DNA of 64,000 nucleotides from Polyangium jinanense (lineage in GTDB: Bacteria > Myxococcota > Polyangia > Polyangiales > Polyangiaceae). Positions within the stretch are counted from its first letter, which is position 1; every line of letters starts with the position of its first letter. The translations under genes and the position numbers were made by a program. Below the pieces are notes generated by a model. That model was not told the origin of the DNA. It saw only the letters and a program-made list of their open reading frames with translations, and did no database searches. The stretch lies in the NCBI RefSeq assembly GCF_028435365.1, contig NZ_JAGTJJ010000005.1, positions 1 through 64,000 of the forward strand. Direction: 5' to 3'. Positions 14,068-34,160 of the stretch are shown here, in pieces.

Positions 14068-14203
14068 GGCCTCTCGCGGGGCCGCTGACGATCCCCTCGA
14101 ATCCCCGGTGCTCTTGAGGGCTTTGGGCATGGCACGAGAGCTGCTCAGGCTCCGCGGCACGACGCCGGCCCGGAGCGGGCCGCCCGAGCCCAAGGAGCCT
14201 CCC

Positions 14204-16372: not shown

Positions 16373-19300
16373 ATGCCCATCGCCATGCCCTCCAAGATTC
16401 GCATCCTCTTCCTCGGAGCGAACCCTTCCGATACCACACGCTTGGCGCTGGGGCGCGAGGTCCGCGAGATCACGCAGCGCCTTCGCGCAACGCACGAGGG
16501 CGAGCGCTTCGAGATCGTGCAGGAGTGGGCCGTTCGCGTCAGCGATCTTCAAGCGGCGCTGCTTCGGCACAGGCCGCAGATCGTCCACTTCTCCGGGCAT
16601 GGTCGAGGCGCCCTTGGCGATCGATCCCCCGATTCGGTCCGCGTCGGCCGGGAGATGTTGCCCGCCGACGAGCCGCGCGCGGAGGATCTCGATGGCGAGA
16701 TCCTGGTCGAGGACGATGCGGGCAGAGCCAAGCCGATCCCTGCGTCTGCATTGGCAAACCTGTTCGGGATCATGGGCGGTGTTCGTTGTGTCGTGCTGAA
16801 CGCCTGCCATTCTGCCGCGCAGGCGGAGGCGATCCAGCAGCACGTGGATGCCGTGATCGGCATGAGCCGCAAGATCGAGGATGCAGCGGCCATCAACTTC
16901 GCGTGGGCGTTTTATCAGGGGCTCGGGTTCGGGGAGTCGCTGAGCAATGCATTCGAGCTGGGCAAGAACCAGATCGAGCTCGCCGGATTCGGGGATGGTG
17001 AGGTCCCGAGGCTCCTGACACGAGAGGTCCCGAGCCGTGCAGGCGTTGTCGTGGCCGACGCGCGTCCCAGGGCGAGCCGCGACGTGGAGGAGGAGCGCGT
17101 CGATCCGTTCCTCGCGAGTGTCGAGCGCGTGGCACGCTTGCGTCACGCGGGGGCGCGCATCACGCGGCACGAGGGGCCCGCGCCATGGGCGGGCACGCTC
17201 GACATCGAAGTGCAGGAAGGAGCGATCTTCGAGCTTCGTGTCGTCGGCGCCGTCGACAGGCCGATCACGGAAGAGCTTTTGACGCAATATATCAAAGAGG
17301 TGGTGCAGCCGCTCCGGCAGCGCGATCCCTACGGGGGAAAACCCACGCTGGTTCACGCGGGTGCGTCCGCCGCTTATGCCTTTCAGATGGAGGCAGCTCG
17401 CCGAGGTGTGCTCCTCAAGAGCTTCTCCGAGTACCAGGGTCTTCTCGATTTCACACGTTACCTCGAACGACAAACGGAGCGCCTGGAGAGCGACGGCATT
17501 TATCCCCCGTGGCTTTACGTCGATCAGCCCGCGCGCGTGAGCCTCGCGGGGGCTCGCGAGGAGAGGCGGGTCGAGAGCGCGCTCGCGACTTTGTGGCAGG
17601 AGCTCGACACGCCCCTCCATCCGCGGTTTGCCCTCGTGCTGGGCGATTTCGGGGCCGGCAAGACGTTCCTTCTCCACGAGCTCGCGCGCCGCATGGCGAC
17701 GGAGAAGCATCCGCTCGTCCCGGTGCTCGTCGAGATGAGCAAGCTCGAGAAGGCGCAGACGCTGAAGACCTTGCTCGCGCAGCATTTCGCGGCGGCGGAC
17801 ATGGCCGGCTTCGATTTCGATGCGTTCCAGTACATGCTCGCCGAGGGGCGGATCGCGCTCCTGTTCGACGGCTTCGACGAGCTCGCGTTGCGGCTGCCCT
17901 ACGACCGAGCGGTGCAGCATTTCGAGACGGTCTTGCAGGCGGCGCACGGGCTCGCGAAGGTGGTCGTGACGAGCCGGCGGCAGCATTTTCTGACGGATCA
18001 CGACGTCAAACGCGCCCTGGCGGAGCAGGCGGAGCGGACGCAGGGGTATCGGTTTTTCCTTCTCGATCGATTCGAGGAGCCGCAGATCCGCCGATTCTTG
18101 CAGAACACGCTGCGAGATCCGGTGGAGGCCGACGCGCGTTACCGGCAGCTCGACAACGTGAAGGACCTGCTCGGGCTCTCGCACAACCCGCGCATGCTTG
18201 GGTTCATCGCGAAGATCGACAAGCAGAAGCTCCGGCGGGCGGAGGAGAACGACGAGGAGGTCACGGCGGCGAAGCTCTACGAGTGGCTCGTCGATCAATG
18301 GCTCGATTTCGAGTACGAGCGGGCAAACCCGCCAGGCGCGCCGCGGGGCGTGTCGCGCAAGGCGCTGCGAACCGTGATGTCCGATCTCGCGCTGCTCTTG
18401 TGGGATCGGCCCGTCAAGACGGTCGAGATTCAAGAGATTCGCGAGTGCGTGGTGTCCAGGATGCGGGCGCTCGGCGAGCCGGTGCTCGATGCGGGCATTC
18501 TGGAGCATCTCTTCGGGTCGGGGTCGCTCTTCGTGCGGGATCGGGACGGTGTTTTTCAATTCGTCCACCGCTCCGTGCTGGAGTGGCTCGTCGCGGAGGT
18601 GGCGGCGCGGGACGTCGTGAGGAAAGGGGATTCGAGCGCGCTCGCGCTGGACGAGATGAGCGAGCTCATGGCGGATTTCTTCGCCTCGATGGTGGGGAAA
18701 GACGCCGCGCTGGATTGGGCGTCGGGCAAGCTGTCGGGCGCGGCCGAGGGGCATGCCAAGAAAAACGCGGCGCTCTTGCTGAAGCGAATCGAGAAGACCT
18801 GGGGGCCGCTGCCGGAGGTGGATGTCCCGGTGACGCTGGACCTCGTAGGCCAGGATTTGCGGGGCGGGGACTATTCGGGGGTCGATTGGAGCGAGGCGAA
18901 CCTGGCGGGGGCGGATCTGCAGGGCGCGACGCTCGTTGGGGCGAAGTTGTGGGGGGCGTCGCTGGCCTACGCCGACCTGTCTCGAGCGGATCTGCGGGGC
19001 GCAGATCTTTCGAGGGTGGACCTCACGGCGGCGGATCTATCGTTCGTCCGAGCGGTGGGCGCGGATTTGACGATGGCGGGGCCCATCGAACCGGCGCGGT
19101 GGCGGGGGGCCAATCTGCTCCGGGCAAAGGGAATCCAGAACGAATGGCTGGAACCGCTGATCGCGGAAGGCGCCGTTCCGCCATCTTTGCGGCAGGTCGA
19201 GCCCATGTGGCTCTCCGCTTCCCGGTGCTCGAGCGTCGCGTTCTGTGCGGATGGCAATATGCTTGCCGCGGGGCACGTCGATGGGACGGTATGGCTCGTG

Positions 19301-21160: not shown

Positions 21161-21171
21161 CGGGTCCCATC

Positions 21172-24100
21172 ATGACCATCGCGATGCCCTCCAAGATTCG
21201 GATCCTCTTCCTCGGAGCGAACCCTTCCGATACCACACGCTTGGCGCTGGAGCGGGAGGTCCGCGAGATCACGCAGCGCCTTCACGGAACACCCAAGGGC
21301 GAGCGTTTCGAGATCATGCAGGCGTGGGCCGTTCGTGTCAGCGATCTTCAAGCGGAGCTGCTTCGGCACAGGCCGCAGATCGTCCATTTCTCCGGGCACG
21401 GTCGAGGCGACCGGAGCAGTCGCTCCCTCGATTCGGTCGACGTCCGCCGGGAGATGTTGCCCGCCGACGAGCCGCGCGCGGAGGATCTCGATGGCGAAAT
21501 CCTGGTCGAGGACGATGCGGGCAGAGCCAAACCGATCCCGGCGTCTGCATTGGCAAACCTGTTCCGGATCGTGGGCGGTGTCCGTTGCGTCGTGCTGAAC
21601 GCCTGCCATTCTGCCGCGCAGGCGGAGGCGATCCGGCAACACGTGGATGCCGTGGTCGGCATGAGCCGCACGATCGAGGATGCGGCGGCCATCAACTTCG
21701 CGTGGGCGTTTTATCAGGGGCTCGGGTTCGGGGAGACGCTGAGCAATGCGTTCGAACTGGGCAAGAACCAGATCGAGCTCTCCGGATTCGGGGATGGGGA
21801 GGTCCCAAGGTTCCTGACCCGCAAGGCCCCGAGTATGCCCAGCAATTCCGGCGCCGCCGACTCCGTACCAGCTCCACATTCGTATGACGGGCCGGTTTCG
21901 AGGCGTGCCATGGGTCGCGAGGAGGATATCGTCGATCCTTTCCTCGCGCGTGTCGAGCGCATTGCGAAGCTGCGCCACCCGGGCGCGCGGATCACGCGCG
22001 GAGATACGCCTCCGCCGTTCGCGGGCGTGCTCGAAGTCGAGGTCGATGCTGGCGGTTTTTTCCGGGTGAGCCTCGTCGCCGCGCTGGACCACGAGATCAC
22101 GGAGGAGCTCGCGGCGCGTTTTTCCGCGGAGATTGACGGGCCCTTCCGCCGGGACCATCCGCTGCTCCGCTCGACGCTGGTGCATCGGGGCCAGGCCGCG
22201 CCCGTCGCCCTGCGCGCAGAGCTCGATCGCCGGGGGATCGAGCTCAAGACGTTCGACGGGTACCAGGGTCTCTTCGACCTCGAACCTTATCTCGCCTGGC
22301 AAACGCGCGAGCTCGAGAAAAGCCCGGCGTACATCCCGACCGCTTACGTCGATCCGCCAGCGTGGATCAAGGTCGCGGGCAATCGCGAGCTCCAGCACAC
22401 CGAGAACGCGCTGCAGTCGATGTGGGATCTGCTCGCGACGCCGGCGCAGCGGCGCTTTTTGCTCGTGCTCGGGGAGTTCGGGGCGGGCAAGACGTTTTTG
22501 CTCCGCGAACTCTGCCGGCAGATGGTGAAGGACAAGCACCCCGTTTTGCCCGTGCTGCTCGAAATGAGCAAGCTCGAAAAACAGCACAGCCTCGCGGAGC
22601 TCATCGGCGCGCATTTCTCGCGCGCGGACGTATCCGGGTACAACTACAAGGCTTTCGAATACATGCTCGAAGAGGGGCGCGTTGCGCTGTTCTTCGACGG
22701 GTTCGACGAGCTTGCGGACAAGGTCACGTACGACAGCGCGACCGGGCACCTCGAAACGGTGCTCTCGGCCGCCCGAGGGCAGGCGAAGGTGGTGCTCTCC
22801 AGCCGGCGCCAGCATTTCTTGACGGAGGGCGAGATTCACAAGGCTGTGGAGCGTGAGTTCGCGCGGAAGGCCGAGAGCGCGGTGCAAGGCGGATATCGGC
22901 TCGTCATGCTGGAGCCGTTCGGCGAGCCGCAGATCCGAAGGTATCTGCGCAACGTGCTCGCGTCGGCGGAGGCGGCGGACGCCCGGTATCGGTTGATCGA
23001 CGAGGTGAAGGATCTGCTCGGGCTCTCGCACAATCCGCGCATGCTCTCGTTCATCGCAGAGATTCCGGAGGAGTCGCTGCGGGAGGCGAAGAAAGAATGG
23101 GGCGAGATCACCTCGGCGAAGCTCTACGAGCTGCTCGTGAAGCAATGGCTCGACTTCGAGCACGAGCGCTCGCGGCGGCAAGGCTGGTCGAAGGGCATTT
23201 CGCGGGAGGCGCTCTCGCGGGGCGTGGCTTCGCTCGCTCTATCCATGTGGCATGCGCGGGTGAAGACGGTTTCGGTGGACGAGATTCACGAAGGGCTCGG
23301 GCAGGCACTCGCAGCGCTCGGGGAGCCGGCCTTCGATCCGGCGGTGCTCACGCACGTGTTCGGGTCGGGATCGCTGCTCGTGCGGGACGGGGAGGGTCGG
23401 TTCTCGTTCGTGCATCGGTCGGTGATGGAGTGGCTCGTCGCGAAACAAGCGGCCGACGAGCTCGTTCGTGGTCAGGATCCGCCGGCGCTCGTGGTGGACG
23501 AGATGAGCGCGCTGATGGCGGATTTCTTCGCGGCGATGGCAGGACGCGAGCACGCTGTAACGTGGGCGCAGGAGAAGATGGCGGGTGCCGACGAGGGCAT
23601 CAGTCGAAAAAATGCAGCGCTCTTGCTCACGCGAATGAAGGAGCGGTTCGAGCGGGTGAATTTCGAGGGGCAAGATCTCCGCGGGCGAGACTTCTCCGGG
23701 GTGGATTGGCGCGGCGCGAACCTTCGTGGGACGGACCTGCGCGGGGCGATGCTGAAGGGAGCTGACTTGCAGGGGGCGTCGCTCGTCGGGGCGGCCCTGT
23801 CGCACGCGGACCTGCGAGGCGCGAGCCTCTCGCGGGTGGACCTGACGGAGGCCGATCTCTCGTTCGTCCGGGCGGAAGGCGTCGATCTGTCGATGGCAGG
23901 GCCCCTCGACCCGGCTCGATTCCGCGGCGCGAACCTGCTCCAGGCAAAGGGTATCCCGGACGAACGGCACGACGCTTTGCTCCGGGTGGGCGCGGTCCCG
24001 CCCGTTCTGCGTCATGTCGAGCCGATGTATGCAGCCGCATCTCCATGCAAGAGCGTCGCCTGGGACCCGTCCGGCTCGATACTCGCGACGGCGCATGGGG

Positions 24101-26010
24101 ATGGCGCAATTTGGCTCGTGGACACGGTCGCGGGCAAGGTCCTGCGTATCCTGTCGGGACACGCCGGTAGAGTCCGCAGCGTCTCATTCTCTCCCGATGG
24201 CAAGATGCTCGCCTCCTGCTCGGAGGACAAGACCGTTCGGCTCTGGGACGTCGTGACCGGCCGCGTCCTGCGCGTCCTCGAGGGGCATACGTCGGCTGTG
24301 CGAAGCGTCCGGTTTTCCCCCGACGGAGAGACGCTCGTCTCCGGTTCGGACGACACGACCATCAAGCTCTGGAACGTCGCGACCGTTCGTGCTTCACGCA
24401 CCTTCGTGGGATTCGAAGGGCATACGGCTGCCGTGAGGAGCGTCGCGTTTTCCCCCGATGGCAAGACGCTCGCCTCCGCTTCTAACGACAGGACCGTCCG
24501 AATCTGGGATGTCGCCACGGGCCGCGCCCTGCAGGTCTTCAGGGAGCATACGCATGCCGTCTTGAGCGTGACGTTTTCCCCCGACGGCAAGACGCTCGCC
24601 TCCAGCTCGGACGACAGCACCGTTCAGCTCTGGGACATCGCGGCCGGCCGTGCCCTGCACGCATTCGAGGGCCAGACGAACGCGCTGTACAGCTCCGCGT
24701 TCGAAGGGCATGCGGACGCGGTGTACGCGGCGGCGTTTTCCCCCGATGGAAAGACGCTCGCCTCCGGCTCGCATGACATGACCATTCGGCTCTGGGACGT
24801 CACGACGGGCCGCACCCTGCGGACCTTCGAGGGACATACGCATGCGGTGAGAAGCGTCGCCTTTTCCCCGGATGGCAAGACCCTCGCCTCCGGTTCGGAC
24901 GACAACACGGCTCGGCTCTGGGATGTCGCCACGGGCCGCGCCCTGCGCACCTTCGAGGGGTATGCGCCTTTCGTGCTGAGCGTCGCGTTTTCCCCCGACG
25001 GCAAGACGCTCGCCTCCGGTTCGAACGATAAAACCGTTCGGCTATGGGACATCGCCACGGGTCGCTCCCGGCCCCCCTTCGAGGAGCATGCGTCTGCGGT
25101 GAAGTGTCTCGCGTTTTCCCCGGATGGCAAGACCCTCGCCTCCGCTTCCTCCGACAGGACGGTTCGGCTCCGGGATGTCGCGACGGGCCGCACCTTGCGT
25201 ACGTTCGAGGGGCACACGGATGCGGTATACAGCGTCGCGTTTTCCCCCGATGGCAGGACGCTCGCCTCGGCCTCGTATGACAGGACCGTCCGGCTCTGGG
25301 ACGTCGTGAGTCGCGCCCTGCGGGTCTTCGAGGGGCATGCGCTGGCGGCCTACAGCATCGCGTTTTCCCCCGATGGCAGGACGCTCGCCTCTGGTTCGTC
25401 CGACAATACGGTCCGGCTTTGGGACGTCGTGGCGGGCCGCGTCCTGCACGTCTTCGAGGGGCATACATCCGCGGTGCTCGGCGTCGCGTTTTCCCCCGAT
25501 GGCAGGACGCTCGCGTCCGGTTCGTACGACCATACCGTTCGGCTCTGGGAGGTCGCCACGGGACGCGCCTTGCGCGCATTCGCCCGGGGCGCGGCGGTGA
25601 ATAGCGTCGCATTCGCCCCCGATGGCAAGCTCCTCGCCTCCGGTTCGGATGACAATACCATTCGACTCTGGGACGTCGCCACGTTCCGCCCCCTGCGGGT
25701 CTTCGAGGGGCACGTATCGGCGGTGTTGAGCGTGGGCTTCGCGCCTGATGGCAAGACGCTCGCCTCCGGCTCCTATGACAATAGGGTCCGGCTCTGGGAC
25801 GTCGAGACGGGCCAATGCCTTGCCATTCTCCTCGCTACCCGTGAAGGCTGGGTCGCCTTCACCCCCGACGGCCGCTACAAGCTTGGCGGCGACATCGCCA
25901 GCTCCTTCTGGCACGTCGCCGGCCTCTGCCGATTCGAGCCCGGCGAGCTCGACGAATACCTCGATCTCCGCCTCCCCGACGACGCGCCCTTTCTCCCTGC
26001 CAAGGTTTGA
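21172..26010 (+). CDS. NLR-like protein 2: CHAT protease-NACHT-pentapeptide-WD40 paralogue
   Basis: 1612 residues with the same order of domains as the gene 11 bp upstream: CHAT His76 and Cys145, unassigned middle domain (ends RRGIELKTFDGYQGLFDL), P-loop GEFGAGKT at 434-441, Walker B LFFDGFDEL around D509-E513, pentapeptide repeats near 825-905, and 14 WD40 blades. The first ~215 residues are almost identical to the paralogue, while the middle domain and NACHT differ widely, so the protease part has been kept uniform by recent duplication or gene conversion while the middle has diverged. Blade 5 carries an extra half unit (FEGQTNALYSSAFEGHADA). The ATG is chosen by homology to the paralogue start (xIAMPSKIRILFLG); the frame is open upstream. 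Probably co-transcribed with protein 1. Confidence 0.9.
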   Translation: MTIAMPSKIRILFLGANPSDTTRLALEREVREITQRLHGTPKGERFEIMQAWAVRVSDLQAELLRHRPQIVHFSGHGRGDRSSRSLDSVDVRREMLPADEPRAEDLDGEILVEDDAGRAKPIPASALANLFRIVGGVRCVVLNACHSAAQAEAIRQHVDAVVGMSRTIEDAAAINFAWAFYQGLGFGETLSNAFELGKNQIELSGFGDGEVPRFLTRKAPSMPSNSGAADSVPAPHSYDGPVSRRAMGREEDIVDPFLARVERIAKLRHPGARITRGDTPPPFAGVLEVEVDAGGFFRVSLVAALDHEITEELAARFSAEIDGPFRRDHPLLRSTLVHRGQAAPVALRAELDRRGIELKTFDGYQGLFDLEPYLAWQTRELEKSPAYIPTAYVDPPAWIKVAGNRELQHTENALQSMWDLLATPAQRRFLLVLGEFGAGKTFLLRELCRQMVKDKHPVLPVLLEMSKLEKQHSLAELIGAHFSRADVSGYNYKAFEYMLEEGRVALFFDGFDELADKVTYDSATGHLETVLSAARGQAKVVLSSRRQHFLTEGEIHKAVEREFARKAESAVQGGYRLVMLEPFGEPQIRRYLRNVLASAEAADARYRLIDEVKDLLGLSHNPRMLSFIAEIPEESLREAKKEWGEITSAKLYELLVKQWLDFEHERSRRQGWSKGISREALSRGVASLALSMWHARVKTVSVDEIHEGLGQALAALGEPAFDPAVLTHVFGSGSLLVRDGEGRFSFVHRSVMEWLVAKQAADELVRGQDPPALVVDEMSALMADFFAAMAGREHAVTWAQEKMAGADEGISRKNAALLLTRMKERFERVNFEGQDLRGRDFSGVDWRGANLRGTDLRGAMLKGADLQGASLVGAALSHADLRGASLSRVDLTEADLSFVRAEGVDLSMAGPLDPARFRGANLLQAKGIPDERHDALLRVGAVPPVLRHVEPMYAAASPCKSVAWDPSGSILATAHGDGAIWLVDTVAGKVLRILSGHAGRVRSVSFSPDGKMLASCSEDKTVRLWDVVTGRVLRVLEGHTSAVRSVRFSPDGETLVSGSDDTTIKLWNVATVRASRTFVGFEGHTAAVRSVAFSPDGKTLASASNDRTVRIWDVATGRALQVFREHTHAVLSVTFSPDGKTLASSSDDSTVQLWDIAAGRALHAFEGQTNALYSSAFEGHADAVYAAAFSPDGKTLASGSHDMTIRLWDVTTGRTLRTFEGHTHAVRSVAFSPDGKTLASGSDDNTARLWDVATGRALRTFEGYAPFVLSVAFSPDGKTLASGSNDKTVRLWDIATGRSRPPFEEHASAVKCLAFSPDGKTLASASSDRTVRLRDVATGRTLRTFEGHTDAVYSVAFSPDGRTLASASYDRTVRLWDVVSRALRVFEGHALAAYSIAFSPDGRTLASGSSDNTVRLWDVVAGRVLHVFEGHTSAVLGVAFSPDGRTLASGSYDHTVRLWEVATGRALRAFARGAAVNSVAFAPDGKLLASGSDDNTIRLWDVATFRPLRVFEGHVSAVLSVGFAPDGKTLASGSYDNRVRLWDVETGQCLAILLATREGWVAFTPDGRYKLGGDIASSFWHVAGLCRFEPGELDEYLDLRLPDDAPFLPAKV
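24040..25840 (+). repeat. WD40-coding tandem repeat array of protein 2 (14 units)
   Basis: Fourteen ~126-bp units with the recurring DNA core ttttcccccgatggcaagacgctcg-like segments; blade 5 is followed by a partial extra unit at about 24661-24725. Homogeneity exceeds that of the paralogue's array, which suggests ongoing unit exchange. Confidence 0.85.
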
Positions 26011-26026
26011 AAGACTGACCCCACCA

Positions 26027-27835
26027 TCACCGCATTCGGGCGAGCGCCGCGCGGCCCGCGTCCACGAAGGTCGCTACCCAGCGCTCGACCTCGTCGCGCG
26101 ACACGCCCATCCGTGAGGCCACCGTCGCCGCGGTCGCCATGCCCCGCAGCACCGCGAGCACAGCGTCTTCCCTGCGAACGCTCTCCTCCGTGCTCCTCGA
26201 TGCCGCTCCTCCTGGCGCCGCATGTCGAATGCCCGCGGGGCATCGCGCAATGGGAAGCCGCGCGGCCGGGTCGCCGAGGAGCACGTACGCCGAAAGATCC
26301 TGTCGTTGCATCCAGAGGTTGGCACGACGTACCCGGCTCGCCTGGTCCTCCACGAAATCGGAGGAAAGGCTCGCCCGATGAGCGTGCTCCTCATCGAAAA
26401 TCGTGACCTCCGTGCTCACCGAACGAAAGAACCGCGCGAGCTCGTGGTGCGCGACGCCGAACCGATGCCCGTTCACGAAGGCCTGCAGGATCCCCTGGAA
26501 GCGCTCGGCGCGGCTCTTCGGGACGAAGGCTCCGCCCTCGATGTCGTAGTCGAGAAAGCTCCAGGTCCATGCGAGATCCACGTGCCCCACCACGCCGAGT
26601 GGACCGTCGGGATTCGCGAGCGCGGCCTGCGGCAGGGCCGCGACGAAGGGCGAATCGCCGCCTCGGGGCAATGCGGCAAGCACCTCGTCCGCGGCGCTCC
26701 CGATGACGCCGAGCTCGTGGAGCCTGCTCAGCCAAGGGAAATACGCGCTGCGCGAAGGGGTACCGGCACCATAACAAGCGAACATGAACCAGACGCCGCC
26801 GGGCAAAAACGGGCCGCGACGAATGTCGTTTGCCGTGAGGAGGTCCCCCTCGCGGCCGAGGACCATCGCGCCTTGGTGGGCGTATTGCTCCTCGAGGGAT
26901 CGCCATCCCGCCTTCGGGATCCCCGCGCCGTGGCTCATGGTGAAGAGCATCCCGCCGCGCGTGCGTGCCGCCTCGCGGAGCAAGACGCCGGCGGCGCTCG
27001 ACAGGTCGAGCGTGGTGCCCGCGGGATCCGTCGGGATCTCGACGATTTCATCGGCGTCGAACGTGCCCGCGGCCTGGCCCTGCCGCGCGATCGCGAGGCT
27101 CGGCTGCACGAGGTGACGATCTCCCTCCTGCATCGCCCGCGTGCCGTCCAGCACCGCATGATAAAGGGCCCGCGCGCGCGGGGCCTCCATCACATCCGCC
27201 CAGCGGAGCGCCTTGTCGACGTAGGCCTCGTATCCAAGGTCGTCCCTGAATGCGAGTCGACCGACGAACGCCTCGCCGCAGAGCATCCGTTGGAGGTCCC
27301 ACGAGATGAGCTCGGGGCCTCCAAGCAGGAGGAGATATCGAGGCCGCTCTACCTCGCGCCGACGAACGGCGTCGCGATATTCTTTTTGAATCCAGGCCCC
27401 GGCCGCGACGGGATCCATTCCGGGTTCGACGCGGTACACGAGCGCCTCTTCCCCCTGTTCTTCCTCACGCTTTTTTCGGAGCGGCGCGAGGAGCGAGAGC
27501 AGGCGATCGCCCGCCGGGCCTTTGGGGGCGACAAGGGCCCAGCGCTGCTCCGGAAGCGCGTCCGACGGCGCGTGGACGTTGGCCACGCGCCGCAGAACCT
27601 CGGGCGGCGCGTCGAGCCCGGGCGCGTCGAGGGTCGCGGCGAGCGGGAGGCCGCCGTCGAGGACGGGGCGTTGATCGTCGGCGTGGGCGAGGAAGAGCTG
27701 GAGTTCGTTCAAGGGGCCCTCGAATGGAAGGCACATCGTCGTCGAGACGGGCGGCGCGCGCAACCGCTTCGTGGGGGACCGCGGAAGCCCGAACCTCGGG
27801 CGCCCGCGGTCCCCCATTGCACGGAGGCCGTGCAT
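26027..27835 (-). CDS. Caspase/gingipain-like protease with C-terminal winged-helix segment
   Basis: 602 residues from the ATG at 27835, which overlaps the upstream lipoprotein stop as TGATG. The core (~residues 200-480) has a His in LFTMSHGAG (H302) and a Cys in VWFMFACYGAG (C354), each at the end of a hydrophobic strand, as in caspase-fold (C14/C25/CHAT) peptidases. The last ~50 residues (RREDAVLAVLRGMATAATVASRMGVSRDEVERWVATFV) look like a helix-turn-helix. The N-terminal ~35 residues are Arg/Pro-rich and may not be coding; ATG 27817 and 27736 are alternatives and none has a ribosome site. Transcribed behind the lipoprotein gene, so under its sigma-54-type promoter. Role inferred, not shown: protease arm of the same system. 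Confidence 0.72.
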   Translation of the reverse strand: MHGLRAMGDRGRPRFGLPRSPTKRLRAPPVSTTMCLPFEGPLNELQLFLAHADDQRPVLDGGLPLAATLDAPGLDAPPEVLRRVANVHAPSDALPEQRWALVAPKGPAGDRLLSLLAPLRKKREEEQGEEALVYRVEPGMDPVAAGAWIQKEYRDAVRRREVERPRYLLLLGGPELISWDLQRMLCGEAFVGRLAFRDDLGYEAYVDKALRWADVMEAPRARALYHAVLDGTRAMQEGDRHLVQPSLAIARQGQAAGTFDADEIVEIPTDPAGTTLDLSSAAGVLLREAARTRGGMLFTMSHGAGIPKAGWRSLEEQYAHQGAMVLGREGDLLTANDIRRGPFLPGGVWFMFACYGAGTPSRSAYFPWLSRLHELGVIGSAADEVLAALPRGGDSPFVAALPQAALANPDGPLGVVGHVDLAWTWSFLDYDIEGGAFVPKSRAERFQGILQAFVNGHRFGVAHHELARFFRSVSTEVTIFDEEHAHRASLSSDFVEDQASRVRRANLWMQRQDLSAYVLLGDPAARLPIARCPAGIRHAAPGGAASRSTEESVRREDAVLAVLRGMATAATVASRMGVSRDEVERWVATFVDAGRAALARMR

Positions 27836-28605
27836 CAGCCGCAAAAACCGCTCCAGGATGACATGATGCCCGGAGGCGAGACGGACGCCGCGGACGAGCA
27901 GCTCGCGCCGTAGGTGCCGCTCTGCGTCACGCCATAGGTCCACGGGGTCGAGCAGACGAAGCGCGACGAGGAATAGACCGGCGAGCAGCCGAAGTTCGTG
28001 CAGGCTTGCGCCGAAATCGTGAACATCTCACAGCCGCCGGTGCACGAGACCTGCGCGAGCGCCGCCGCGCCGTAAGAACCCGAGACGGGCGAGCTCGGGC
28101 CGGTATAAAACCCGATGTTGCACGAGACCGTCAGCGACGCAGGGGCGGCCGCGATGTTCTTCGCGGTCTCCTGGAGGTTCGCAAGCTGCGCCTGGAGACG
28201 CTCGATCTCGTCGTTCACCGCGGGATCCTCGTCCGCCTGCGAGGCGCTCCGCGCCTGGAGCTCCGAGAGCTCCTTTTCGGCTTGCTCGATCGCCCATTTG
28301 TGCCCCTCGGCGCCGGCGATGATGCGGCCTGCGCCTTCCTGCTCCCCGTTCTCCCAGACGCCCGGAGCGAGCTCCTTCCACGCCGCATTGGGCACGAGCG
28401 CGAGGGAATCACCCGCCCGCTCCAGTTGCATTTCGTTCTGCCCGGGGATGGACAGCGCCCCGCTCTCGTCGATGAGCGCCTGCTCGACGCTTTCGGCAGC
28501 TTCCTCGGACTCCGAGGAGGCCACACACCCGGCCATCACGAAGCTGCCGGCGACGAGGGCCACGGAGAAGAAACGGACGGCGAAGATCGAATGTGCATTG
28601 TTCAT
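27835..28605 (-). CDS. Lipoprotein with coiled coil and Cys-rich C-terminus
   Basis: 256 residues. Signal peptide with lipobox FVMAGC (Cys27), an acidic Ser/Glu stretch, then a probable coiled coil at ~100-150 (EQAEKELSELQARSASQADEDPA... IERLQAQLANLQETAK), and a C-terminal ~100 residues with about nine Cys and many Ser/Gly/Tyr, likely a disulfide-bonded surface domain. No family recognised. AGGAG lies upstream of the ATG. Promoter evidence: a -24/-12 element at 28661-28676 and palindromes at 28735 and 28776. The downstream caspase-like gene starts inside its stop codon. Confidence 0.8.
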   Translation of the reverse strand: MNNAHSIFAVRFFSVALVAGSFVMAGCVASSESEEAAESVEQALIDESGALSIPGQNEMQLERAGDSLALVPNAAWKELAPGVWENGEQEGAGRIIAGAEGHKWAIEQAEKELSELQARSASQADEDPAVNDEIERLQAQLANLQETAKNIAAAPASLTVSCNIGFYTGPSSPVSGSYGAAALAQVSCTGGCEMFTISAQACTNFGCSPVYSSSRFVCSTPWTYGVTQSGTYGASCSSAASVSPPGIMSSWSGFCG

Positions 28606-28660: not shown

Positions 28661-28676
28661 TGCAGCGACCGTGCCA
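28661..28676 (-). promoter_or_regulatory. sigma-54 (-24/-12) promoter for the lipoprotein/protease operon
   Basis: Read on the minus strand: TGGCACGGTCGCTGCA, matching TGGCACG-N4-TTGCW except one T to C, with the exact 10-base gap between GG and GC. Predicted start of transcription ~28650, 45 nt before the ATG. Confidence 0.75.
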
Positions 28677-28734
28677 GCCCTGCCGGGCACGCCGCCGTCC
28701 CTTTTCGTGCGCGCGACAGCCCTGACGCCTGGCG

Positions 28735-28746
28735 CTGACGCGTCAG
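28735..28746. promoter_or_regulatory. activator palindrome CTGACGCGTCAG, centred near -90
   Basis: A perfect 12-bp palindrome about 90 bp upstream of the predicted start at 28650. The identical 12-mer occurs again only at 30564 and 33379, each time next to a -24/-12 promoter. Confidence 0.75.
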
Positions 28747-28775
28747 GAGCCGAAATGGACGTCTGTCGGGGAAGA

Positions 28776-28787
28776 TTGTCGCGTCAG
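28776..28787. promoter_or_regulatory. second activator site (10/12), near -131
   Basis: TTGTCGCGTCAG differs from CTGACGCGTCAG at two positions; it is 41 bp upstream of the perfect site, the same spacing as the pair at 30564/30604. Confidence 0.5.
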
Positions 28788-28806
28788 CGCGCGCGGACGC
28801 GTGGAG

Positions 28807-30498
28807 TCAGGTGAGGCCGAGCTCGCGCACGCGGCGCAAGAGCGCCCGCTCGGAGACCTCGAGCCGCTCCGCCATCCGCGGGAGATCACCGCCGAGCTCA
28901 CGGTGGCATTGGGCGATCTCCTGCTCCGTGAGGTCACCCGCGGTGCGAAACCCGGGGAATCGCTCGATGAGCAGGTACAGAGATGCCCGCGAAATGCCGA
29001 GTTTCTCCGCGGTGGCGGCGAGATCCCAGCGACACATGCGCAAGGTCTCGCGGAGCTCGGCCTCGGTGACGTCGGCGGGCCTTCGCCGAGCGGGAAGTCG
29101 TGAAGCAGACGAGGAATCGTCGTTCGGGGCCTTGGCGGCGGCCGGCGGCGGATCGGGGACGTGGACTTGTGGAGGATCCGGCAGCGCCGGCTCGATGGGC
29201 CGCGGGTTTTCCGCCTCGCGCGGAGGTTGTCTCACGAGAAGCCGCTCGACGGCAGGCGTCATCTCTGCGCGATTGCGTCCACGATTGCCGATGACGAGCT
29301 GCCGAACGACGTTCCGGAGCTGCCGCACGTTGCCCGGCCAGTCGTACTCGGCGAGGCGCGCGACGAGAGACGCGGGGAGCCACGGCTTCGCGTCGCCGGC
29401 CGGAAGCGCGAGGCGGTGCGATTCCCCGATCTCCGTGAGCTCCTCGCGCAAAAACCGCACGAGGAGGCGCCCGATGTCGTCCCGACGGTCGCGCAGCGGC
29501 GGGATCCATATCTCGTACGCCGCGAGTCGGTTGAGCAGCGGCGCGCGAAACGAACCCGTCGCGACCTTTCCTTCGAGATCGGCGTCCGTCGCGGCGACGA
29601 CACGCACGTCGGTTTTCCGGAGCTGCGTGGAGCCCACGGTCTGGATCTCCCCCGTCTCCAGCGTGCGCAAGAGCGCGACCTGGAGCTCGACCGGAGCCTC
29701 GCCAATCTCGTCGAGGAAGAGCGTGCCGCCGTGCGCCTGCTCGAAATACCCAACCCGACGCTTCTCCGCTCCGGTGTACGCGCCCTTCTCCGCGCCAAAA
29801 AGCTCAGCGACGGCGAGCGATGGCGGAATGGCGCCCAGGTTGACCGGGACGAACGGCTTGTCACGCCGCAGGCTCGCCCGGTGAATCGCGCGGGCGACGA
29901 GCTCCTTGCCGCTGCCGGTCTCCCCACGAAGCAGGACCGGCAGATCGAGGTCGGCAATGCTGCGGATGTCCCAGAGCACACGGCGGAGGCCGTCGCTCGC
30001 GCCGGCGAGCTCGCGAGCATCGTCGTCCGCGCCGCCGTCGAGGACGTACTCGGATGTGCCCGCGTGATGTGCGAGAAGGACAATCCGATGGCCGAGTTCG
30101 AGCACGACCCCGCGGGCGAGCTCCTTGGCCGAGAGCATGGCGCTGCCGAGGAGCCGCTGGCCACGTAGATTCAACGCGGTGCTGCTGTCGCCGACATCGA
30201 TGCGCAGGCCGCCGTCGGGGGCGGCCGTGAAGTGGATGGGTTTGCGGCTGAGATGCTCGTCGCCGAGGGGCTCGCCTTCACCGGGGGTGGAAGGAGGCGC
30301 GAACACAGGCTCGGCGCGGGAGAGGGCGAAGGGCCGACCGGGAGAGTCGTCGATGAGGACGCGATCACCGACGCGCTCGAGGACGGGGTGGTAGAGGATG
30401 GTCAACGCAAGGGCGGGAGCGTCGTCGCCGGATGCGGTGGCGGTGCCACGGCCCACGAGGGTGGTGCGGTTGAATCCGGTATTCCTGCCAGGAGGCAT
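28807..30498 (-). CDS. FHA-domain sigma-54-dependent transcriptional activator with two C-terminal HTH units
   Basis: 563 residues. Residues ~30-150 form a FHA-like domain (TLVGRG..., ALNLRGQRLLG...), the phosphothreonine-binding sensor common in myxobacterial activators. ~165-400: AAA+ domain with Walker A GETGSGKE (192-199), the sigma-54-contact loop GAYTGA (239-244), and Walker B LFLDEIG. A Pro-rich linker follows, then two Fis-like units: EAELRETLRMCRWDLAATAEKLGISRASLYLLIE and EQEIAQCHRELGGDLPRMAERLEVSERALLRRVRELGL. The GAYTGA loop means it can act on sigma-54 polymerase. Nearby palindromes and -24/-12 promoters are its likely targets, and the kinase at 34206 a possible input. The frame opens at a TTG (30537); ATG 30498 is preferred. 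Confidence 0.92.
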   Translation of the reverse strand: MPPGRNTGFNRTTLVGRGTATASGDDAPALALTILYHPVLERVGDRVLIDDSPGRPFALSRAEPVFAPPSTPGEGEPLGDEHLSRKPIHFTAAPDGGLRIDVGDSSTALNLRGQRLLGSAMLSAKELARGVVLELGHRIVLLAHHAGTSEYVLDGGADDDARELAGASDGLRRVLWDIRSIADLDLPVLLRGETGSGKELVARAIHRASLRRDKPFVPVNLGAIPPSLAVAELFGAEKGAYTGAEKRRVGYFEQAHGGTLFLDEIGEAPVELQVALLRTLETGEIQTVGSTQLRKTDVRVVAATDADLEGKVATGSFRAPLLNRLAAYEIWIPPLRDRRDDIGRLLVRFLREELTEIGESHRLALPAGDAKPWLPASLVARLAEYDWPGNVRQLRNVVRQLVIGNRGRNRAEMTPAVERLLVRQPPREAENPRPIEPALPDPPQVHVPDPPPAAAKAPNDDSSSASRLPARRRPADVTEAELRETLRMCRWDLAATAEKLGISRASLYLLIERFPGFRTAGDLTEQEIAQCHRELGGDLPRMAERLEVSERALLRRVRELGLT

Positions 30499-30563
30499 GC
30501 ACCGCCGATGGTAAGACGGGGCGTGCGGCGGGGGCAAGGGGAAGAGGAGCCCTCACGCCATCT

Positions 30564-30575
30564 CTGACGCGTCAG
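30564..30575. promoter_or_regulatory. activator palindrome CTGACGCGTCAG, centred near -130
   Basis: Perfect copy of the 12-bp palindrome, in the gap between the divergent activator gene and the small lipoprotein gene at 30734. It lies ~130 bp upstream of the predicted start at 30700, and ~70 bp upstream of the activator's own ATG, so it might also serve autoregulation. Confidence 0.7.
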
Positions 30576-30603
30576 CCCGCCCCTCCGCTGTCAGGTCCGT
30601 CCA

Positions 30604-30615
30604 CGAACGCGTCAG
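30604..30615. promoter_or_regulatory. activator site (10/12), centred near -90
   Basis: CGAACGCGTCAG matches 10 of 12 palindrome positions and is centred 90 bp upstream of the predicted start at 30700, 40 bp from the perfect site. Confidence 0.55.
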
Positions 30616-30673
30616 CAATCACTGGACGCGCCTCCTCGTGGTGCTCGGGCCCGAAAAACCATCGCGACCTGCC

Positions 30674-30689
30674 AGGCACGGAAGCTGCT
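30674..30689 (+). promoter_or_regulatory. sigma-54 (-24/-12) promoter for the gene at 30734
   Basis: AGGCACGGAAGCTGCT keeps the GG-N10-GC spacing and the GGCACG core. Predicted start ~30700, leaving a 34-nt leader that ends in GAGAGG before the ATG. Confidence 0.7.
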
Positions 30690-30733
30690 CAGGGGGATGG
30701 TCGCAACGACAGCCCCGTTCTTCGAGAGGTTTT

Positions 30734-31237
30734 ATGCTCCACGACATTCGCAACCCGATGATGCTCCTCTGTGCCTCCTTCGCCGCGCTGGCGACGGGCT
30801 GCGGTACGACCGCCACCATTTCGCGGTTCAACGAGCCCGAGATCGAGGGGAAGATCGTCGCCGCCGACGACGGCATCCTCATGGTCGAGACCCGGGCGGG
30901 AAATGATTCGATTGCGCTCCAGAGCGTCACGGACATCGATCATCCTGGAAACGTCGCCGGCACGATCGGCACCGTGCTCACCGGCTACGGCATCGCGAAC
31001 ATCGCCATCGGCGCAGAGGATTGCGAAAGGGGCGGGGCCGCATACTGCCTGGGCGTCTTCCTGCCGGCGGCGATCGGAGTTCCGCTGATGGCGTGGGGCT
31101 TCGCGACATGGGGCAGGTCGGTCTACGCCGCGAGCCCAAGGTCGAAGAGCAATGAGGTGAGCTTTACCGTGCTGCCGACGGCGGCGATTCAGAAGAATGA
31201 CAAGTTTTTGGGTGTGAACGCGACGGTCACGTACTGA
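30734..31237 (+). CDS. Small lipoprotein with two membrane segments
   Basis: 167 residues. Lipobox ALATGC (Cys23) after a short hydrophobic leader, a beta-rich region (EIEGKIVAADDGILMVETRAGNDSIALQSVTDIDH), then two hydrophobic stretches (NVAGTIGTVLTGYGIANIAIG and CLGVFLPAAIGVPLMAWGFA) separated by a Cys pair. Function unknown. Its promoter shows the same -24/-12 plus palindrome layout as the caspase-like genes on either side, so it belongs to the same regulon. It converges on the metacaspase gene, whose stop lies 12 bp beyond its own. Confidence 0.78.
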   Translation: MLHDIRNPMMLLCASFAALATGCGTTATISRFNEPEIEGKIVAADDGILMVETRAGNDSIALQSVTDIDHPGNVAGTIGTVLTGYGIANIAIGAEDCERGGAAYCLGVFLPAAIGVPLMAWGFATWGRSVYAASPRSKSNEVSFTVLPTAAIQKNDKFLGVNATVTY

Positions 31238-31249
31238 GCCGCTCTCGGC

Positions 31250-33271
31250 CTACGGCCCTCCAATGCCCCGCACGATCTCCACCGTCACGAGCGTCGCCGT
31301 CCATCGCTCCGCCGGCGCTTCCTCGTCCGGCATCATTTCCCTCGTCGACCTGCCGATCGCCTCCGCGAACGATTCTTTGACCCGCAAGAAGCGCAGATCC
31401 ACCTCCGGCGACGCCGTCCCCACGACGACCAGCCGGTCCACATTGGATTCCCGCCCGGCCGATACCCTGCACGGAAACGCTCGCCCGAGGTGCCCGCTCA
31501 TCCAGAACGTCTGCCGCCGCCACGGCGCAATCTCGAGCTGCGTCGTCCCGAGGATCTCCACCCTCCCGCTCGACGCGCAATTGAGCACCTGCGCATACAT
31601 CGGCTCGCTCGAACGATTCTCCACGGAAAAACACACCGGCTGCCCGTCGAGCAATCGATAACGATACCGCCCGTCCGGGTCCGGCTCCGCCTCGGGGAGC
31701 GGCGGGTCCGCGAGCTCTTCCAGATCGAGCCTCCCCACGTCCCGCGCGTCGAGCACCCGCACGCGCAGCACGCCCGGCCAATCACGACATCGGCGCACGA
31801 GGCGCAGCGGCAACTTGTATCGTGCATGATGCAAAAGCCCTTGGACGAGCGCCGCGCGATCCCCTGCCGGCACCCAGGCGAGCGGCGCCTGGTCCCCGGA
31901 TGCACCTGCCCCGAACCCGTGCACGTCGTCTCCGATCCAGAAACGCCCATCCGGCGCGCGCCCCACGACCGCCTCCACCTCGCGCTCGCCATGTGCAGAG
32001 ACGGCCGCGACCGAAAAGAGCGACGCCTCCGCCGAAAGCCATCGCGAAAGATCGGCGTCGAACGGGTCGAGCCCCACGACCAAGGCGTCGCCTTTCCCGG
32101 GTGCCACGAGGCGTCCCCGCGCCGCCTCGTCAAGGACGAATGCGGCTCCCACGGACGAGGCCAGCGCCGATGACGCGGTCGCGCTCTCGACCTGCAGGAG
32201 CCCGCGCCGAGCGGCGCGATCCTCCGGGGAATGGAGCGGCGGGAAAAACTCCGGGCTCGGCCCGTACACGGCGACCTTGGCCCCCGCTGTGAGCCCTACC
32301 ATCGTGCCCGCGTGGATACGATAACGCTCGCCTTCCCGGGTGATCGCATACCCGGGATCCTGCCTCCGAAATGGCCCCCCGAACAGGCGCCGCTCGGACC
32401 GACCGAGGAGACACGGATGCTGGCCCGGAAATGCAGACGTGACCCGCGCGCGGAGGTTCTGCCAGAGATCTGCCCATCGCAGGACGCGGAGCCTCTCGTC
32501 GGACTCCGCGGCGAGCAGGTCGAGCAGCCCCGCGGTGAATGCGCCGTGACGAACCCCGCCCGCGGTTTTCCCCTCGCTGGCGGCTTCACCCGATTGTGCG
32601 GATGCGACGACCAAGAAGCCTGGATCCGAAGGATCGAAGGATGCGAAGAGCCCCGCGCGGGCCTCGCCGCCACTCCGCGAGGAGACCGAGGGGAGCATCT
32701 GCAGCTCTTCGATCGAGCAAAACCGAACCGCGCTCTCCCGTGGGCGCCACGCGCTGCGCGTCGCGCCCGCAGAACAGCAGCAATCGAGGACGACGGTGAG
32801 ATCGTCCGTCCGCGCGGCGATGCGGCGCAAGACGTCATTGATCCAGTGGTCGAACAAGAGCTCCCCGCCCGCGAGCGCGTCGACCGGGACGAGCGCCTCG
32901 CGCGCGGTCCGCGTGCCCCGCGGGAGCACCTGCGTGCCGTGGCCCGAATAATGGATGAAGACACGATCGCCCGGACGAACCCCCTCCCCTGCGAGCGCTT
33001 CGAGCGCGGCGCGAAGGTTCTCCGACGTCGGTTCGCCTTCCGGAAGGCGCGGTCGCCTCGACGACCCTGGATGAGGCGCGACGAGCTTCGTGATCGAATC
33101 GGCCGGGACCGAGAGTCGGTCGAGGAGGAGCGCCTCCAAGGCGTCGACATCGTTGACGCAGCCGTAGAGCGGATCGACGCGTGGATAGGCATCGATGCCG
33201 ACGAGCAGGACGTGGAAGCGGGGGGATGCCTCGCTGGCGTCACCCGCTCGCGTTCGGTCGAACACGGTCAT
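31250..33271 (-). CDS. Metacaspase-like (peptidase C14) protein with large C-terminal region
   Basis: 673 residues. The N-terminal ~290 residues are a caspase domain: FHVLLVGIDAYPRVDPLYGCVNDV at the start, His111 in FIHYSGHGTQ, and the catalytic Cys in LTVVLDCCCSAGA (C165 by alignment to the DxCxSG motif, where the usual His after Cys is replaced by Cys). Acidic/Arg pockets of metacaspases (cleavage after Arg/Lys) cannot be confirmed. The C-terminal ~370 residues are beta-rich, with an NRSSEPMYAQVLNCASSGRVEIL segment typical of a domain found behind bacterial caspases (DUF4384-like). A -24/-12 element lies only ~4 nt upstream of the ATG by prediction, so translation may be nearly leaderless, or begin at GTG 33265. 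Confidence 0.88.
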   Translation of the reverse strand: MTVFDRTRAGDASEASPRFHVLLVGIDAYPRVDPLYGCVNDVDALEALLLDRLSVPADSITKLVAPHPGSSRRPRLPEGEPTSENLRAALEALAGEGVRPGDRVFIHYSGHGTQVLPRGTRTAREALVPVDALAGGELLFDHWINDVLRRIAARTDDLTVVLDCCCSAGATRSAWRPRESAVRFCSIEELQMLPSVSSRSGGEARAGLFASFDPSDPGFLVVASAQSGEAASEGKTAGGVRHGAFTAGLLDLLAAESDERLRVLRWADLWQNLRARVTSAFPGQHPCLLGRSERRLFGGPFRRQDPGYAITREGERYRIHAGTMVGLTAGAKVAVYGPSPEFFPPLHSPEDRAARRGLLQVESATASSALASSVGAAFVLDEAARGRLVAPGKGDALVVGLDPFDADLSRWLSAEASLFSVAAVSAHGEREVEAVVGRAPDGRFWIGDDVHGFGAGASGDQAPLAWVPAGDRAALVQGLLHHARYKLPLRLVRRCRDWPGVLRVRVLDARDVGRLDLEELADPPLPEAEPDPDGRYRYRLLDGQPVCFSVENRSSEPMYAQVLNCASSGRVEILGTTQLEIAPWRRQTFWMSGHLGRAFPCRVSAGRESNVDRLVVVGTASPEVDLRFLRVKESFAEAIGRSTREMMPDEEAPAERWTATLVTVEIVRGIGGP

Positions 33272-33285
33272 TTGTGTTCGATGGA

Positions 33286-33301
33286 AGCAAAGGACGAGCC
33301 T
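33286..33301 (-). promoter_or_regulatory. sigma-54 (-24/-12) promoter for the metacaspase gene
   Basis: Read on the minus strand: AGGCTCGTCCTTTGCT, with GG-N10-GC spacing and an intact TTTGC. Predicted start ~33275, only 4 nt before the annotated ATG, which is unusual and lowers confidence. Confidence 0.55.
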
Positions 33302-33356
33302 CTCGTAAAGGAGGAGGCTGCGTCAATCCGCAGTGCGTTGACACACATTGACATCG

Positions 33357-33368
33357 CTGACACGTCAA
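33357..33368. promoter_or_regulatory. activator site CTGACACGTCAA, near -90 of both divergent genes
   Basis: Ten of twelve positions match the palindrome. Its centre is about 88 bp from the predicted metacaspase start and 92 bp from the predicted start of the opposite gene, so one site could serve both. Confidence 0.55.
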
Positions 33369-33378
33369 ACGTCAACCT

Positions 33379-33390
33379 CTGACGCGTCAG
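33379..33390. promoter_or_regulatory. activator palindrome CTGACGCGTCAG between divergent genes
   Basis: Third perfect copy of the 12-bp palindrome, 22 bp (two helical turns) from the site at 33357. It lies ~110 bp upstream of the metacaspase start and ~70 bp upstream of the start for the gene at 33507. Confidence 0.75.
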
Positions 33391-33427
33391 CCGGGGCCGC
33401 GCAGACCGCGTTCCTGGGTGACAATCC

Positions 33428-33443
33428 AGGCACGAACGCTGCA
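33428..33443 (+). promoter_or_regulatory. sigma-54 (-24/-12) promoter for the gene at 33507
   Basis: AGGCACGAACGCTGCA, nearly the same as the element at 30674, with exact GG-N10-GC spacing. Predicted start ~33454, 53 nt before the ATG. Confidence 0.7.
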
Positions 33444-33506
33444 TGATGGGCCATTCAGACACGCCGCGGGATGCAGACGCGACCACGTGCCGAACAGGAG
33501 ATGGAC

Positions 33507-34160
33507 ATGACGACGACGGGCCTGCTCGATCTCGGCGCTTCCGAGATCGTCGATCGAAATACGGGGGAGCTCCTCGGGTACGCATTCACCGTGGAAAGCG
33601 GCAAGGGACAGCTCCAGCGCTGGCTTTTGTTCCGGCACCCGCAGAACGAGCTCGAGATCCGGCCGCCCGCCCCCGCCATGGCAACCTGGTCCCTCGCGGA
33701 CTGGCAGGCGAACGTGCCCAGCCTTTGGAGGCCCAACGGATTTTACGTTTGGGCGCAGGCCGACGTGTATCGGCACGGCGAAACGTACGACGGCGTGACC
33801 TGGGCGCAGATCCCGTCCGTCTCGCAGCTTCCCAAACCCACGTTCCCCGAACTCCCCGGGAGCAACTATCAGCTCGATTACACGGGCAAGGTCGCCGACG
33901 TGCTTCAGGAAAATTGGCGCGGCCGTGCGTTCGTCGTCCGCGGGTTGACGCAAGCATCGAGCATCGAGTACTGGTCGCTGCCGGCGCGTTATCAGCCGGC
34001 AGGCAGCAGGGGTACCACCACCGTCACCGTCGGCACGGAGGAAGCTTCCTCGCTCGATGCGTTCGTCGAGCACAGCAACAGGACGTGGAGCACCGGTAGC
34101 ACGTTCGTCATCACCGGCTGCGCCAACTACCACGGCTCCGCGACGCCCTTCGCGCCCTGA
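33507..34160 (+). CDS. Protein of unknown function in the sigma-54 regulon
   Basis: 217 residues, soluble, no signal peptide. Tryptophan/tyrosine-rich and mostly beta by appearance (YAFTVESGKGQLQRWLLFRHP, WRPNGFYVWAQADVYRHGETYDGVTW, SSIEYWSLPARYQPAG). I do not recognise it. AGGAG lies six bases before this ATG, whereas ATG 33501 would have none at proper distance. It is divergent from the metacaspase and shares its palindromes, so co-expression with it is expected; a secreted or inhibitor-like partner role would be speculation. Confidence 0.75.
   Translation: MTTTGLLDLGASEIVDRNTGELLGYAFTVESGKGQLQRWLLFRHPQNELEIRPPAPAMATWSLADWQANVPSLWRPNGFYVWAQADVYRHGETYDGVTWAQIPSVSQLPKPTFPELPGSNYQLDYTGKVADVLQENWRGRAFVVRGLTQASSIEYWSLPARYQPAGSRGTTTVTVGTEEASSLDAFVEHSNRTWSTGSTFVITGCANYHGSATPFAP

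Follow-up and report, generated by a model that had tools for sequence, protein, structure and literature searches.

The 64,000-nt window analyzed here (the whole stretch from position 1 to 64,000 of contig NZ_JAGTJJ010000005.1, RefSeq assembly GCF_028435365.1) comes from the myxobacterium Polyangium jinanense. Near its middle lies a gene for a predicted activator of sigma-54 RNA polymerase, i.e., a bacterial enhancer-binding protein (bEBP), among genes for two predicted lipoproteins (LipoA and LipoB), a predicted protease with a gingipain-like fold, a metacaspase-type predicted protease, an orphan protein and a Ser/Thr protein kinase. Copies of a 12-bp palindrome, CTGACGCGTCAG, and sigma-54-like promoter elements stand between these genes (Table 1). 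We describe the comparative evidence that these features form a putative sigma-54 regulon.

Three exact copies of CTGACGCGTCAG are present in the window, where Markov models of order 1-3 predict 0.005-0.013 copies in 64 kb, together with three 10/12 versions that carry two changes each. Four 16-mers have the GG-N10-GC layout of sigma-54 (-24/-12) elements and agree with it at 11, 10, 10 and 10 of 12 scored positions in the order of Table 1. Measured from the predicted transcription starts, the palindromes are centered at -130/-89 (LipoA), -129/-89 (LipoB), -108/-86 (metacaspase) and -90/-68 (orphan-kinase). An earlier, sequence-only reading of this DNA had listed the same six palindromes and four elements, all of which were recovered by the window scan; the distances that it gave (-88 to -92, plus a second site at -131, -130, -110 or -70) agree with ours within ~2 bp. 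Sigma-54-like elements with up to three mismatches number 104 in the window vs 89 expected, and three additional 9/12 elements, at 30448, 55397 and 55444 (all on the minus strand), are also paired with a palindrome-like site. Since partial matches are this frequent, the elements by themselves prove nothing, and cross-genome comparison had to decide. Two more sigma-54-like elements, at 14130(+) and 53317(-), differ from the search pattern at one position and have no palindrome-like site in their vicinity.

Table 1. Features of the putative regulon in the window, followed by related features in stretches of other genomes
Feature	Position	Strand	Basis or remark
Predicted protease, gingipain-like fold (clan CD), C-terminal helix-turn-helix (HTH)	26027..27736	-	Foldseek
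LipoA, 256-aa predicted lipoprotein	27835..28605	-	Open reading frame (ORF), orthologues, lipobox judged by eye
-24/-12 element TGGCACGGTCGCTGCA	28661..28676	-	LipoA promoter; present in window and all 5 orthologous loci
Exact palindrome CTGACGCGTCAG	28735..28746	.	~-89 of LipoA promoter
10/12 palindrome	28776..28787	.	~-130 of LipoA promoter
Sigma-54 activator (bEBP) gene	28807..30498	-	Pfam, AlphaFold model, AAA+ structure matches, FHA profile match
Exact palindrome CTGACGCGTCAG	30564..30575	.	~-129 of LipoB promoter; also upstream of activator gene
10/12 palindrome	30604..30615	.	~-89 of LipoB promoter
-24/-12 element AGGCACGGAAGCTGCT	30674..30689	+	LipoB promoter
LipoB, 167-aa small predicted lipoprotein	30734..31237	+	Lipobox judged by eye
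Metacaspase-type (C14) predicted protease	31250..33271	-	PF00656, E = 9.6e-19
-24/-12 element AGGCTCGTCCTTTGCT	33286..33301	-	Putative metacaspase promoter, weakest of four; 5-nt leader
10/12 palindrome	33357..33368	.	Common to divergent metacaspase and orphan-kinase promoters
Exact palindrome CTGACGCGTCAG	33379..33390	.	Common to both divergent promoters, at -68 and -108
-24/-12 element AGGCACGAACGCTGCA	33428..33443	+	Orphan-kinase promoter
217-aa orphan protein, function unassigned	33507..34160	+	Longer ORF 33471-34160
Ser/Thr protein kinase, 1067 aa	34206..37409	+	PF00069, E = 1.9e-35
Metacaspase-upstream inverted repeat	L121 12452-12469; L167 ~6235-6250
Antisense palindrome set	L166 ~9480; L135 ~7930	+; -	In G004 between convergent genes
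GACAYGTC-core repeat loci	L128, L129, L131		Upstream of activator paralogue

The comparison set consisted of six Polyangium genomes (G001-G006). Five of them (G001, G002, G004, G005 and G006, the carriers) have an activator orthologue (81-89%), whereas a 52% paralogue is all that G003 has. The relatives nearest to the activator belong to Polyangium (88% in Polyangium sp. y55x31 and 15x6). Among the six genomes, a close orthologue of the gingipain-fold gene (81-91%) is likewise restricted to the carriers. The genes for LipoA, the gingipain-fold protein, the activator, LipoB, the metacaspase, the orphan and the kinase are co-located in the orthologous loci, in G005 across two stretches of the same contig that overlap. 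In alignments of these loci the sites and elements are mostly retained, while the spacers drift. In the window and all five loci, LipoA has sites at -128 to -131 and at -88 to -91; for LipoB, the window, G001, G002 and G004 have them at -128 to -130 and at -88 to -90. A DUF5684 gene with sites of its own (-110 and -69) precedes LipoB in G005, and a DUF5684 remnant does so in G006 (L119 9753-9880), behind a weak element (8/12) whose sites are at -108 and -68. The orphan-kinase promoter has a site at -67 to -69 in 6/6 (the window plus the five loci) and a second at -89/-90 in three. The GG-N10-GC element at -24/-12 is conserved for three of the four promoters, and that of the metacaspase is present in 4/6 (the window, G001, G002 and G006). 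No exact or one-mismatch palindrome was found in the scanned stretch beside the activator orthologue of G005. As a separate observation, an inverted repeat, CGTCCTT-CGTA-AAGGACG, is present upstream of the metacaspase gene in G004, where the sigma-54 element is missing, and is partly kept in G005.

Linkage between palindromes and promoters was then assessed genome-wide, a copy being called linked when it stands at -60 to -135 of a sigma-54-like element (GG-N10-GC, at least 9/12). The underlying scan took the exact 10-mer TGACGCGTCA in G001 and G002, where its reversed control occurs 2 and 0 times, and the exact 12-mer in G003-G006. Linked copies amount to 7/15 in G001, 8/14 in G002 and 8/14 in G003-G006, against 2088 of 50000 random positions (4.2%), which are not matched to intergenic DNA; with elements of at least 10/12, they are 5/15, 5/14 and 7/14 against 1.2%. 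Exact 12-mers number 5, 6, 1, 3, 5 and 5 in G001-G006, where ~1-2.5 are expected in 12.7 Mb (genome expectations were scaled by hand from the window composition). The sequence-only reading had named as damaging to itself a palindrome that is frequent genome-wide and unrelated to -24/-12 elements. The six Polyangium genomes do not show this: 18 of the 24 exact 12-mers in the five carriers are linked (G001 4/5, G002 6/6, G004 2/3, G005 3/5, G006 3/5), compared with 4.2% of random positions. In G003, which is without the orthologue, the proportion is 0/1. Outside the orthologous cluster, 9 of the 23 10-mers of G001 and G002 are linked; this count and the 18/24 were made by hand, and both include non-independent copies, namely orthologous sites from the five genomes and paired sites at the same promoter. 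Of the six unlinked carrier 12-mers, two (L116, L117) precede regulon genes at different distances, three (L106, L107, L108) are inside reading frames whose base composition looks coding, and one (L206) is ambiguous. A combined pattern of palindrome and element gave 19 matches in the six genomes vs 1 reversed with a spacer of 35-65, and 5 vs 0 with a spacer of 66-96. Over 108 genomes of the family, 18 matches fall in the five carriers and 26 in the other 103, with 8 for the reversed pattern in all.

Additional regulon candidates, mostly lipoprotein genes (called from lipoboxes judged by eye), lie outside the cluster in all five carriers, that of G004 being only the antisense-reading set discussed below. 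The sequence-only reading had proposed a compact local regulon. Its cluster genes, sites and promoters are largely conserved, and the regulon is not only local, so "compact" understates it. Two SBBP-repeat lipoproteins are found behind such promoters in G001 and two in G002, with homologues in G005 and G006 (PF06739 was tested in one protein), and their genes start 20-21 bp after the predicted transcription start. Another small lipoprotein stands behind such a promoter in G002 (L077). In G001 and G005, a 1220-aa lipoprotein is encoded divergently from a DUF5684 membrane protein (the domain was tested in the G005 protein), both behind such promoters. The DUF5684 genes start 30-34 bp downstream of the predicted transcription start. 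The 1220-aa ORF starts at +22 in G005; in G001, its first start codon is at -3. Near the G005 cluster, and also behind such a promoter, is a gene for a 416-aa protein, the N-terminal part of which matches the CHAT end of the large CHAT protein of the window.

A period of 10.35 bp describes 14 site distances taken from eight promoter groups (R = 0.78), and 1 in 5000 random sets did as well; distance ranges, phasing ranges and groups had been picked with the data in view. Such a period would place the sites mostly on one face of the helix, with pairs about two or four turns apart and, in one case, three. Mostly one representative per promoter group was used, and sites common to divergent promoters were entered once; the G005 orphan promoter was counted separately, even though the orthologous promoters have their sites in common with the metacaspase. 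Omitted were -87 of the antisense group, -96 of the G005 orphan promoter, -100 in G001 contig 4, -119 of one SBBP promoter (which has an 11-base alignment gap) and the far sites -216 and -221.

The activator itself has the sigma-54-interacting AAA+ domain (residues 159-425) and the Fis-type HTH that define a bEBP. There are two HTH units, at 479-513 and 525-559, and HTH_8 was found in 55/55 aligned homologues at E <= 1. The AlphaFold model (pLDDT 82.8) contains a beta-rich N-terminal domain at 27-146, the AAA+ domain and both HTH units. Its AAA+ part is closest in fold to NtrC1 (1ny5), LuxO, NtrX and FleQ, and the matches listed in full-length fold searches were to this part only. The N-terminal region (~27-146) appears to be a divergent FHA-like domain. 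A profile of 18 activator N-termini matched 3gqs_A in the PDB with E = 4.8e-5 (next match 0.09), which we take to be an FHA domain structure. The FHA family was not matched by these 18 N-termini in a Pfam and NCBIfam search, nor was it among the first 25 of 68 families for 55 full-length homologues. R61, S84 and R85 are invariant across the 55 homologues, whereas the FHA His position is Pro and the Asn is not kept; FHA domains have phosphate-binding Arg and Ser residues together with SxxH and NG motifs. The activator had been described in the sequence-only reading as an FHA protein with two HTH units. Pfam and the model bear out the C-terminal units, and the FHA assignment stands, weakly, as that of a divergent domain.

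Non-orthologous activator relatives (E <= 1e-60) are present in all six genomes, one to four in each. At the loci of the 52% paralogue in G001, G003 and G004, two or three GACAYGTC-core repeats with 12-bp spacing lie upstream of a divergent element. The gene behind these repeats in G004 (L131) encodes a PF04185 phosphoesterase, with a homologue in G001 (L129) judged by eye. In G073, CTGACATGTCAG and TTGACATGTCAA stand 20 bp apart upstream of a 56% paralogue. The Sorangium-like genome G102 has activator, orphan and kinase genes together; no palindrome lies between its activator and orphan genes, and two TGACGTGTCA sites precede sigma-54-like elements, in one case at the gene for a predicted TPR lipoprotein. 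The paralogue loci suggest TGAC-N2-GTCA as a possible operator code at the level of the family. Exact palindromes occur beside non-orthologous activators at two loci (L131 and L172). A palindrome beside every paralogue was considered and rejected, since 16 of 22 non-orthologous loci, including those of the 65% and 58% Polyangium paralogues, lack an exact or one-mismatch copy in the scanned stretch.

The products of the putative target genes include two types of predicted clan CD protease. Foldseek matched the gingipain-fold protein to gingipain K (4rbm; E = 1.8e-9, TM 0.39/0.51, 12% identity), and H308 and C360 are invariant in 38 homologues. The protein thus has the gingipain-like fold and conserved His/Cys pair of peptidase family C25, and these two residues are probably catalytic. 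It scores below the Pfam PF01364 cut-off (14.2 bits vs 23), and PF01364 is precomputed on some of its homologues among the matches listed. The full ORF is 26027-27943, and the start was picked by eye from homologue lengths. The sequence-only reading had called this protein caspase-like; a predicted protease is indeed encoded beside the lipoprotein, with a fold that is gingipain-like instead. All 10 solved sequences matched by the metacaspase are metacaspases, and the His/Cys dyad of its C14 domain (HYSGHG and DCCCS) was judged by eye. The orphan protein matched no Pfam family up to E = 5 and has 75 homologues among the matches listed. It occurs in 6/108 family genomes, namely the five carriers and G102. 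Adjoining the regulon are tandem genes for large WD40-repeat proteins, at 16373-21160(+) and 21076-26010(+). The second is convergent with the gingipain-fold gene, and its product has N-terminal CHAT and NACHT-associated inactive restriction endonuclease domains.

We consider it highly probable that the locus encodes a sigma-54 regulon under an enhancer-binding protein with its own operator code. This reading is supported by comparative sequence evidence, i.e., motif, promoter, spacing, co-conservation and co-occurrence with the activator. The neighboring activator would be the protein that binds the motif, and the promoters would be functional, with ordinary enhancer activation as the most likely mode. 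It is hypothesized that the activator, with an FHA-like sensor, an AAA+ motor and two Fis-type HTH units, binds paired CTGACGCGTCAG-like palindromes centered 68-130 bp upstream of the start of a -24/-12 promoter and on one helix face, and that its oligomers loop to sigma-54 RNA polymerase and open the promoter. Locally, LipoA and the gingipain-fold protease would be under its control, as would LipoB, the orphan-kinase operon and, probably, the metacaspase; the last two promoters diverge and would share one pair of sites. Distant lipoprotein genes of relatives are also preceded by this operator.

Several observations weigh against this reading. Matches to CTGACGCGTCAG with up to two mismatches number 10 in the window vs 6.5 expected, and at least 10 were seen in 10/100 shuffles, so that weak palindrome copies alone are no better than chance; the window signal is the three exact copies plus the placement of the weak ones. 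Likewise, TGACGCGTCA occurs 15 and 14 times in G001 and G002, where ~20-28 copies are expected in 12.7 Mb, and 14/29 copies are unlinked. The 10-mer is therefore not over-represented, and the signal lies in position and in the longer 12-mer. To these are added the unmatched background of the linkage test and the choice of phasing ranges and groups after the fact. The metacaspase element is absent at >=9/12 in G004 and G005 (G004 has one 8/12 match), and the predicted start leaves a leader of 5 nt. Because of the 4/6 distribution and this leader, the metacaspase promoter is the weakest of the four. With respect to distal members, 13 of the 18 carrier matches to the combined pattern are in or near the orthologous cluster and the 5 distal ones are in G001 and G002; 5 in five genomes, compared with 26 in 103, is a modest excess. 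The SBBP promoters are copies of one another, and the 16 paralogue loci without a palindrome belong here as well. Finally, a triple palindrome with a -24/-12 element, conserved in G001 and G004, reads antisense under a gingipain-like gene.

The alternative that survives best, which we regard as improbable, is that the palindrome is the operator of another protein, such as a paralogous FHA-type activator or the gingipain-fold protease with its HTH, and that the neighboring activator acts elsewhere. Every genome has activator relatives, some of them at loci with related palindromes, and the gingipain-fold protein combines a C-terminal HTH with a close orthologue confined to the carriers. Against this, the sites are at enhancer distance, in helical phase and upstream of -24/-12 elements, as expected for an enhancer-binding protein, and G003, with the 52% paralogue and no orthologue, has a single exact 12-mer that is not promoter-linked. 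It is less probable still that the sites serve not for activation but for repression or silencing by a bound protein, or for autoregulation of the activator gene. The sites at 30564 and 30604 are also just upstream of the activator gene, for which the scan gave a single element, a 9/12 one at 30448 inside the gene, and only ~44 bp separate the -68 site from -24, a shorter distance than the 80-150 bp that passages of PMC7910581 give as typical. Tandem phased sites upstream of sigma-54-type promoters are nevertheless the usual enhancer layout, and distances as far out as -130 fall inside the typical range or close to it. That the palindrome is a chance or repeat-element motif with spurious -24/-12 matches is hardly credible: partial sigma-54 matches are frequent, and the 10-mer in G001 and G002 is no commoner than composition predicts, with half of its copies unlinked, but sites and elements are kept against diverged spacers, 18/24 carrier 12-mers are linked, and the distances are phased.

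If the locus is a sigma-54 regulon of this kind, a phosphothreonine signal may switch the activator on via its FHA-like domain, and the kinase of the regulon is a possible source, which would give positive feedback. A set of lipoproteins and clan CD proteases would be consistent with a response to envelope stress or with cell death. A fuller version, which we offer as speculation and think rather unlikely, is a self-amplifying program in which the regulon kinase phosphorylates a partner or the activator, the FHA-like domain reads this mark, and the activator induces clan CD proteases (metacaspase, gingipain-fold and, in one species, CHAT) and envelope lipoproteins as an envelope-stress, defense or cell-death response, with paralogues reading their own TGAC-N2-GTCA variants. 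An anti-phage reading was set aside: the PADLOC matches (RtcR/PspF AAA+, kinase, caspase and CHAT models) fit general domains, and defense was thus not adopted as the function.

Regulons of the NtrC, NifA and PspF type are governed by bEBPs with an AAA+ motor and a Fis-type HTH. The putative regulon differs from these in its other sensor domain, its second HTH and its targets, which include clan CD proteases and lipoproteins. FHA-domain sigma-54 enhancer-binding proteins were reportedly described in Myxococcus xanthus by Jelsbak et al. in 2005. The activator class, the sigma-54 promoters and the myxobacterial host are alike, whereas here the FHA-like domain is missed by Pfam and there are two HTH units. 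According to passages of PMC7910581, enhancer sites typically lie 80-150 bp upstream of -12/-24 regions, and dimers of the M. xanthus enhancer-binding protein Nla28 bind tandem repeats upstream of -24/-12 promoters. The tandem-repeat layout is shared with the Nla28 regulon as described there, while the Nla28 half site is CT(C/G)CG(C/G)AG, compared with the TGACGCGTCA palindrome here, and the Nla28 passages concern natural-product genes (PMC7910581). Neither this operator nor a sigma-54 metacaspase regulon was the subject of any paper listed in a literature search outside which most subscription journals lie.

To our knowledge, the role and the timing of expression of bacterial metacaspases are an open question. 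We propose an operator code and a target list for an apparently FHA-type sigma-54 activator of myxobacteria. This would place bacterial caspase-type proteases under a defined, testable and signal-dependent promoter class, and metacaspase expression may become addressable via one activator.

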